NCBI GenBank assembly: GCA_002716285.1 | Contig: PBAM01000033.1 | Coordinates: 1 to 33,160, forward strand | DNA: 33,160 bases | Reading direction: 5' to 3' | DNA from: Acidimicrobiaceae bacterium | GTDB lineage: Bacteria; Actinomycetota; Acidimicrobiia; Acidimicrobiales; MedAcidi-G1 | In this document: positions 859 to 11,646 of the stretch, piece by piece | How the letters are laid out: every line of letters starts with the position of its first letter | How positions within the stretch are numbered: position 1 is the first letter of the stretch | Notes under the pieces: model-generated | What the model saw: only the letters and a program-made list of their open reading frames with translations | What the model was told of the DNA's origin: nothing | Databases searched by the model: none | Program-made: the position numbers and the translations under genes

Positions 859-885
859 CAGGGAGCACACAAGCTTTCTTAAAAC

Positions 886-1269
886 GGTGGAGCTGGGGGG
901 AATCGAACCCCCGTCCGTCGGAGTGCAACCGCTTGCGATACGACCATTCCCGTGGTTGTGTCTTTAGGCTGTCACACTGCCGGATCAGTTAGCACAAGGC
1001 CTGCCTCAAGGTCTTTCCCTTAAGTCAGCGTTCTTTCGCGCCGTCAGCGGTCTGTCCCTGCGGTCTCCTCCGCTTCTGTTGCCAGGCTGCGGTGGATCGG
1101 CCCCGCGTGCCGTTACCGGTCGCGATGACTCTCTACAACTTGACTAGGTCAGGCTGCGAGAGCGAGATCATCCGTGTTGGAGTCTCTTTTTAAGCCCCGT
1201 TTAAAGAGTCTGAGCAACTCTGGTCGCACAAAACGGATACTGTCACCGGCGTCGAAACCGATCAGCCCC
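886..1269 (-). ncRNA. ssrA: transfer-messenger RNA (tmRNA)
   Basis: Minus strand starts GGGGCTGATCGGTTTCGACGCCGGTGACAGT and ends GGACGGGGGTTCGATTCCCCCCAGCTCCACC; the GGGGCTG/CAGCTCC acceptor stem pairs. Internal tag reading frame ends ...DSNTDDLALAA-stop (stop at 1149-1151). Confidence 0.97.
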
Positions 1270-9382: not shown

Positions 9383-10552
9383 GTGCCTCCAATGAACGAT
9401 TTAACCGACATTCAAACACGATTTCCAGCTTTATCTGATGGCTGGGCCCGTTTTGATGGGCCTGCAGGCACTCAAGTAGTTGATACGGCGATAGACGCGA
9501 TGAGCGACTGGCAACGCAGTGGAAGAAATGCGAATAGCCATGGAGCTTTCCCGGCGGCACAAGCTTGCGATGATCTTGTCGATGAGACAAGTGAGATAAT
9601 GGGTGAACTCCTTTCTGCGGATCCTGCAGGAATGACCTTTGGACCAAGTACAACTGCCAACATGATGGCATTGACAAGAGCAGTTGCGGTAAACCTTAAA
9701 CCAGAAGATGAGATTATTTGCACCACTCTTGACCATGATGCAAATGTTGCACCTTGGATGTTGGCAGCTCGTGATTCAGGATCCACAATTCGAATGGCAG
9801 AATTTGATCCCAGCACTGGGAGACTCGAATCAGAATCTGTTATCAATTTGATAAGTTCGCGGACGAAATGGATTGCAGTAACAGGTTCATCAAATGTTAT
9901 TGGCTCGATTCCTGATGTCGCTTCCATAACAACAGCCGCACATGAAGTAGGTGCAAAAGTAGCTGTAGATGGAGTGCATTTAACACCACACAGAAAAGTT
10001 GACATCAATGAAATGGGTTGCGATGTTTATGCAACTTCTTCGTATAAGTGGTACGGACCACACGCTGGAATCATGTGGATCGAGCCTGAAGCACTGAACG
10101 ACTTACCTGTGTACAAAGTACGCCCATCTCCTGAAAGAGGAGCTGGGCGGTTCCAATATGGAACACCTCCATGGGAAACCCTGGCCGGGATAAAAGAAGC
10201 TGCAAAATTTTTGCTTAGTGTAGGTTTCGACTCGATAGTTGAACACGAATCTGCAAGGTTTGAGCGATTGCTTTCAGGTCTCATAGGCATGCCAAAGGTT
10301 CGAGTGTTGGGACCTAATGACAATAAAGATAGAGCGCCCACATTGATGTTTCTTGTAGATGGAAAAGAACCAGAAGAAACAGCTCAAAAAGTTGCAGAGG
10401 CTAAAGTAGCGGTTTGGGATGGGCACAATTATGCAGTTGAAGCTATGGATCCTTTAGGGCTCGACGAAAAAGGGGCAGTTCGAGCAGGTGTTTGTATTTA
10501 CATTGGCGACAAAGACGTTGATCGATTGTTGGAAGCAGTTTCATTAATTTGA
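9383..10552 (+). CDS. Class V aminotransferase / cysteine desulfurase-like protein (VC1184-like) lacking the canonical catalytic Cys
   Basis: PLP fold motifs VDGVHLTPHRKVDINEMGCDVYATSSYKWYGPHAGIMW; C-terminal GHNYAVEAM replaces SufS GHHC. Start GTG 9383 or ATG 9392. Confidence 0.9.
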   Translation: MPPMNDLTDIQTRFPALSDGWARFDGPAGTQVVDTAIDAMSDWQRSGRNANSHGAFPAAQACDDLVDETSEIMGELLSADPAGMTFGPSTTANMMALTRAVAVNLKPEDEIICTTLDHDANVAPWMLAARDSGSTIRMAEFDPSTGRLESESVINLISSRTKWIAVTGSSNVIGSIPDVASITTAAHEVGAKVAVDGVHLTPHRKVDINEMGCDVYATSSYKWYGPHAGIMWIEPEALNDLPVYKVRPSPERGAGRFQYGTPPWETLAGIKEAAKFLLSVGFDSIVEHESARFERLLSGLIGMPKVRVLGPNDNKDRAPTLMFLVDGKEPEETAQKVAEAKVAVWDGHNYAVEAMDPLGLDEKGAVRAGVCIYIGDKDVDRLLEAVSLI

Positions 10553-10611
10553 AAAAAGCCTGAAAATTTACGAGTAGTCGCCTACTCTGAACTTAGATCA
10601 AGGAGGTTTGC

Positions 10612-11646
10612 ATGAGACTGACACAATTCAGCCATGGTGCTGGTTGAGGCTGCAAACTCTCTCCGAGTGACCTGGAGCAGGTTCTGCACCGACTTAAACC
10701 ACAAAAATCAAAAAATCTTATCGTCGGGTCGTCGACAGGCGATGATGCTGCAGTTTGGCAGTTAGATGAAGATAGAGCGCTAGTAATGACAGCGGATTTT
10801 ATAACTCCTGTTATTGATGACGCTCTCACATGGGGGAAAGTAGCCGCAACTAATGCCGTTTCAGACATTTATGCAATGGGTGCGAAACCATTAATGGCGA
10901 TTAATTTGGTTGGCTGGAATTCTGAAGAACTTCCAACAGAACTGTTATCTGAAGTTTTGGAAGGCGCCAATCAGGTTGCTGAAGAAGCAGGTTTTGTAAT
11001 TGCTGGTGGGCACACAGTTGAAGACCCTGAGCCAAAATTCGGATTGGCTATTGTGGGTGAAGTGGATCCGAAAAATTTGTTAAGGAATTCAGGGTTTCGT
11101 GAAAATGATTTGTTAATACTTACGAAAAAGCTTGGTGTCGGAGTAATAACTACAGCAATAAAGAATCAAGAATCAACCGAAGAAGCTACGGATGCAGCAA
11201 TTGCATCGATGCTCAGACTTAACGATCAGGCAGCAAAAATAGCGATTGAATCTGGAGCGACTGGGGCTACCGATATAACTGGGTTTGGACTATTAGGACA
11301 TCTGGGAAGAGCTGCAAGAGAATCAAAAGTTGACGTAGAAATAAATGTTTCAGAAGTGCCCATATTGCCCGATGCACGAGATCTAGCTTTAGCGGGAAAT
11401 TTGCCCGGTGGGAGTAAGAGGAATCTTGAGTGGGTTGAAGCACAATTGGATGTCGGTTCCGTCGAGGATATAGACGTTCATCTTTTGGCAGATGCGCAGA
11501 CTTCAGGTGGTCTTTTATTCGGTGTAGAACCTGAAGAAGTTGAAACAACTCTTAACAAGCTGATCGAAGCAGAACATGATGCTGCGGTGATCGGACGGAT
11601 GAATTCCGGGAGTGGCATGATTAGATTGTCTAGTCAGTGCAAATAA
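10612..11646 (+). CDS. selD: Selenide, water dikinase (selenophosphate synthetase), selenoprotein with Sec at TGA 10645-10647
   Basis: ATG preceded by AAGGAGG; translation MRLTQFSHGAG(U)GCKLSPSDLEQVLHRLKPQKSKNLIVGSSTGDDAAVWQLDEDRALVMTADFITPVIDDALTWGKVAATNAVSDIYAMGAKP.... The TGA is in frame with the 10786-11646 ORF (offset 174 nt = 58 codons). Confidence 0.95.
10648..10690 (+). promoter_or_regulatory. Candidate bacterial SECIS element of selD
   Basis: Immediately 3' of UGA: GG(C)UGCA-AACUCU-CUCC-[GAGUGACCU]-GGAG-CAGGUUC-UGCACC; two helices, with an apical loop starting with G at +18 nt from the UGA. Confidence 0.75.

Follow-up and report, generated by a model that had tools for sequence, protein, structure and literature searches.

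The locus raises the question of whether the TGA triplet that interrupts selD close to its 5' end marks a broken gene or a codon for selenocysteine (Sec). Within the window, by which we mean the whole 33,160-nucleotide stretch of DNA analysed, selD occupies 10612..11646 on the forward strand: translation from the ATG at 10612 to the TAA at 11644-11646 meets a single internal stop among 345 codons, the TGA at 10645-10647 (+), and read through this codon the frame specifies 344 residues with the TGA at residue 12. A Shine-Dalgarno motif (AAGGAGG; 10600..10606, +) can be read directly 5 nt ahead of the ATG. The initial annotation had proposed a selenoprotein gene with an in-frame TGA at its active site, an ATG preceded by AAGGAGG and in frame with the 10786-11646 open reading frame, and a supplied gene call that starts 58 codons late and so loses the catalytic segment. 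All of this is borne out by our reading and translation: without readthrough the open reading frame is confined to 10786-11646 (286 instead of 344 amino acids), and 58 codons are missing.

The read-through protein is recognised by the selenophosphate synthetase model TIGR00476 over residues 2-309 (383.4 bits, cut-off 125), and it carries the N- and C-terminal AIRS domains of Pfam (PF00586, PF02769). The alignment of the full-length protein to characterised SelD, a check suggested by the initial annotation, agrees with this: the product aligns to the solved structures 3u0o and 2yye, and its residues 1-312 match chain 3u0o with 257 bits, such that residue 12, the TGA, comes to lie opposite chain residue 17. 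Here, the HGAGUGCK loop pairs with HGAGCGCK and the TGA takes the place of the first Cys, Cys17 of E. coli SelD, an established catalytic residue. Homology is continuous on either side of the TGA. The E. coli enzyme is the same protein, except that it has Cys17 in place of Sec and manages without UGA recoding. Compared with known Sec-containing SelD/SPS2 proteins (TIGR00476), we see likeness in the full-length match, in the position of TGA at the Cys of HGAG(U/C)GCK and in Sec machinery encoded by the genome, and no essential difference; here the protein comes from a marine acidimicrobial lineage that is uncultured.

That a 286-codon frame begins at 10786 might be taken to mean that translation truly starts there, downstream of the TGA, to yield a shorter protein with another role. 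Such a product would lack the catalytic loop, and codons 1-30 are the most conserved stretch of selD; moreover, a strong Shine-Dalgarno motif precedes 10612 and the genome has Sec-decoding genes (see below), so to our minds a late start is exceedingly improbable.

As for the codon itself, the column that holds the catalytic residue in 123 SelD loci from Acidimicrobiia and other phyla contains TGA (68 loci), TGT (38) or TGC (17) and no other codon. This excludes chance, and the column is most directly read as interchange between Sec and Cys. The six closest named relatives, which include MedAcidi-G1, Acidimicrobiaceae NP20 and AG-414-N20 and are 85-97% identical, all have the identical TGA although they derive from separate assemblies, and close relatives show hardly any amino-acid changes to either side of it. 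These data bear on a scenario in which selD was misassembled or misread, or was made a pseudogene by a nonsense mutation, the true codon being TGC or TGT. The source assembly (Acidimicrobiia; 1.48 Mb, 39 contigs, about 80% complete) is indeed fragmented and incomplete, and unknown bases occur in other genes; yet the TGA is also found in those checked family members whose selD was in reach, and, apart from the TGA, selD is undamaged and its protein sequence strongly constrained. With the TGA common to separate assemblies, an error or pseudogene, which the initial annotation had itself allowed for in the form of a misread TGA, is already refuted, and the restricted codon column together with the six relatives renders it untenable; we give it next to no credence. 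It is almost certain, therefore, that selD is intact here and specifies a selenoprotein form of selenophosphate synthetase, with UGA predicted to be decoded as Sec.

An in-frame TGA alone does not give the identity of the residue inserted, and the codon might have been reassigned, or some other mechanism might read it as another amino acid (e.g. Trp, Gly or Cys). Against this, TGA also serves as the normal stop codon of 10 of the 33 window genes, which excludes a genome-wide recoding of TGA, and the same assembly encodes a full Sec pathway. Its tRNA-Sec gene (contig C35, 55899-55990) scores 66.1 bits, above the Rfam cut-off, is called tRNA-SeC with a TCA anticodon by ARAGORN and folds with a long extra arm; since the tRNA-Sec model gives weak scores to many tRNAs, in control genomes as well, we counted the one match above cut-off. 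On another contig (C14) lie selA (382 bits, cut-off 268) and, beginning 18 nt downstream of it, selB (296 bits, cut-off 242), whose product ends in the SECIS-binding winged helix (PF09107). In addition, the in-frame TGAs found in this genome occupy known Sec/Cys redox positions. Taken together, an amino acid other than Sec at residue 12 is highly implausible. The initial annotation had predicted an organism that decodes UGA as Sec, with selA, selB and tRNA-Sec elsewhere, and had seen a lack of SelB or tRNA-Sec as evidence to the contrary; both are present, and the prediction of Sec decoding is supported.

On this basis, a ribosome starting at 10612 would reach the UGA at codon 12, where a downstream SECIS hairpin would recruit SelB-GTP together with Sec-tRNA(Sec); Sec would be inserted into the HGAG-U-GCK loop and translation would continue to the TAA at 11644. 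The resulting SelD would convert selenide and ATP into selenophosphate, the donor that SelA would use in making Sec-tRNA(Sec), so that SelD may be envisaged as both producer and user in the Sec pathway. The reading frame, the catalytic position of the TGA, the conserved codon and the decoding genes of this assembly are observed; the SECIS, Sec insertion into SelD and catalysis by it are inferred.

Bacterial SECIS elements sit inside the coding region, directly 3' of the UGA, and a candidate hairpin is found just there (10648..10688, +; stem at about 10651-10688), based on folds compared with synonymous randomisations, on low synonymous variation and on alignment. Among seven close sequences, synonymous variation in selD codons 12-31 amounts to 0.07 against a mean of 0.30, the third lowest value of 324 windows, and in codons 21-30 it is 0.08 as opposed to 0.44 and 0.44 in the genes on either side. 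These neighbours, used as a control, are likewise low in their first 20 codons, and so it is the depression over codons 21-30 alone that is specific to selD. When the 45 nt from the TGA were folded, many relatives folded far better than their synonymous randomisations (z down to -4.5). The window's own hairpin shows a modest effect on synonymous randomisation (z -1.8, p 0.05), which is invisible on plain shuffles (z -0.41). RNAalifold run on 21 relatives gave no single clear common hairpin, and the consensus fold received little covariation support (-0.67 kcal/mol); folding each sequence against its synonymous randomisations was more informative than this consensus. The hairpin after the TGA and the low synonymous variation fit a bacterial SECIS, which is the likely identity of this element.

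Sec use in this organism appears not to be confined to SelD. The initial annotation had recommended a search for other selenoproteins, and a family-by-family survey of the same genome turned up at least six further genes with in-frame TGA, all at redox Cys positions. They include two different UGSC-family selenoproteins with the TGA in ADUGSC (L149, 251-799 on C36; L150, 409-942 (-) on C10; 158 and 130 bits, cut-off 125), two formate dehydrogenase alpha genes that are almost identical and have CNRTUH (L151 and L152, on C17 and C8; L151, the copy scanned, scored 659 bits with TIGR01591, just below the cut-off of 666), a BCP/PrxQ-like peroxiredoxin with an in-frame TGA in an STPGU motif, and a ResA-like protein with WUGC (L154, 348-1406 (-) on C16; 179 bits with NF041054 (WAxxUGC), below the cut-off of 300). 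Contig C8 ends shortly past its formate dehydrogenase copy, and the pair may be either a true duplication or an assembly or strain duplicate. When the window was scanned for further genes that a TGA interrupts at Cys-like motifs, no other convincing selenoprotein emerged. Throughout the 13 family genomes searched (13/13), the UGSC protein, the PF00578 peroxiredoxin and the formate dehydrogenase-like gene have the TGA. Apart from correcting a truncated selD gene call, this identifies marine Acidimicrobiia of the host's family as full Sec users with several selenoproteins, which makes selenium supply part of their physiology.

How common is the Sec form of SelD in this class? A SelD-like match is present in 235 of 296 Acidimicrobiia genomes; for the best 150 of these 235 matches, 106 have an in-frame TGA and 44 have none. 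Where the catalytic codon was examined, it is TGA in 24 of 30 class loci and TGT or TGC in the other six. Thus, Sec-SelD is the usual form in the class as sampled and not exceptional for the lineage. It was long known, too: Sec-containing SelD has been described from many bacterial phyla including Actinobacteria (PMC1794560), and in the Global Ocean Sampling data no selenoprotein was more widespread than it and SelW-like proteins (PMC2398784). So the initial annotation, which thought the gene notable for a marine actinobacterial-like genome, did not hold up in this respect. Judged by titles and counts, open literature that names Acidimicrobiia and selenoproteins together is nearly absent and consists of incidental mentions, and we found no selenoproteome description for the host's acidimicrobial lineage in the openly searchable literature. 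The class-wide extent of Sec-SelD is useful annotation and no new mechanism. Very small genomes (about 1 Mb) of the same class (genus g66, family f29) also have a SelD with in-frame TGA, and Sec use may therefore survive strong genome reduction. Matches with two TGAs in genus g3 at first suggested a double-Sec SelD, an idea set aside because in L019, the single case inspected, the additional TGA falls at the C-terminal end of the frame.

Upstream of selD, 59 nt from its start and possibly co-transcribed with it, ends a gene for a NifS-like, cysteine-desulfurase-like PLP protein (9383..10552, +; TIGR01976, 353.7 bits). Where type II desulfurases have GHHCA (motif table in PMC8300815), this protein reads GHNYA and is without the catalytic Cys; GHNYA, with its invariant Tyr, recurs at every locus examined (34/34). 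Hence the Cys-bearing GHHCA loop that marks a type II cysteine desulfurase or Sec lyase is not found in the neighbour. For orphan SelD, the proximity of a cysteine-desulfurase-like gene to selD had already been remarked on (PMC5029168), and a selD-containing operon of Enterococcus faecalis encodes SclA, a candidate Sec lyase (PMC13188914). Like SclA or the NifS-SelD fusion, our neighbour is a PLP gene of the class V aminotransferase fold that adjoins selD, but it belongs to TIGR01976, reaches a mere 83 bits with the SclA model (cut-off 525) and has Tyr at the position of the SufS catalytic Cys. In five genera of the family the gene immediately precedes selD; in a sixth it is found on the same strand, about 1.5-2.4 kb upstream. 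In other families, orthologues reside on contigs other than that of selD, or their genomes show no recognisable Sec-SelD; within the order, many genomes that encode Sec-SelD yield SufS-level matches only. With orthologues outside the family thus unlinked to selD or lacking a recognisable Sec-SelD, a dedicated SelD partner is doubtful, and we consider it unlikely that the Cys-less protein is a selenium-delivery enzyme, i.e. a Sec lyase that feeds SelD without a catalytic Cys. Elsewhere in the window, a tmRNA gene at 885-1269 (-) is recognised by Rfam with 92 bits, whereas the ARAGORN scan of the window overlooked it.
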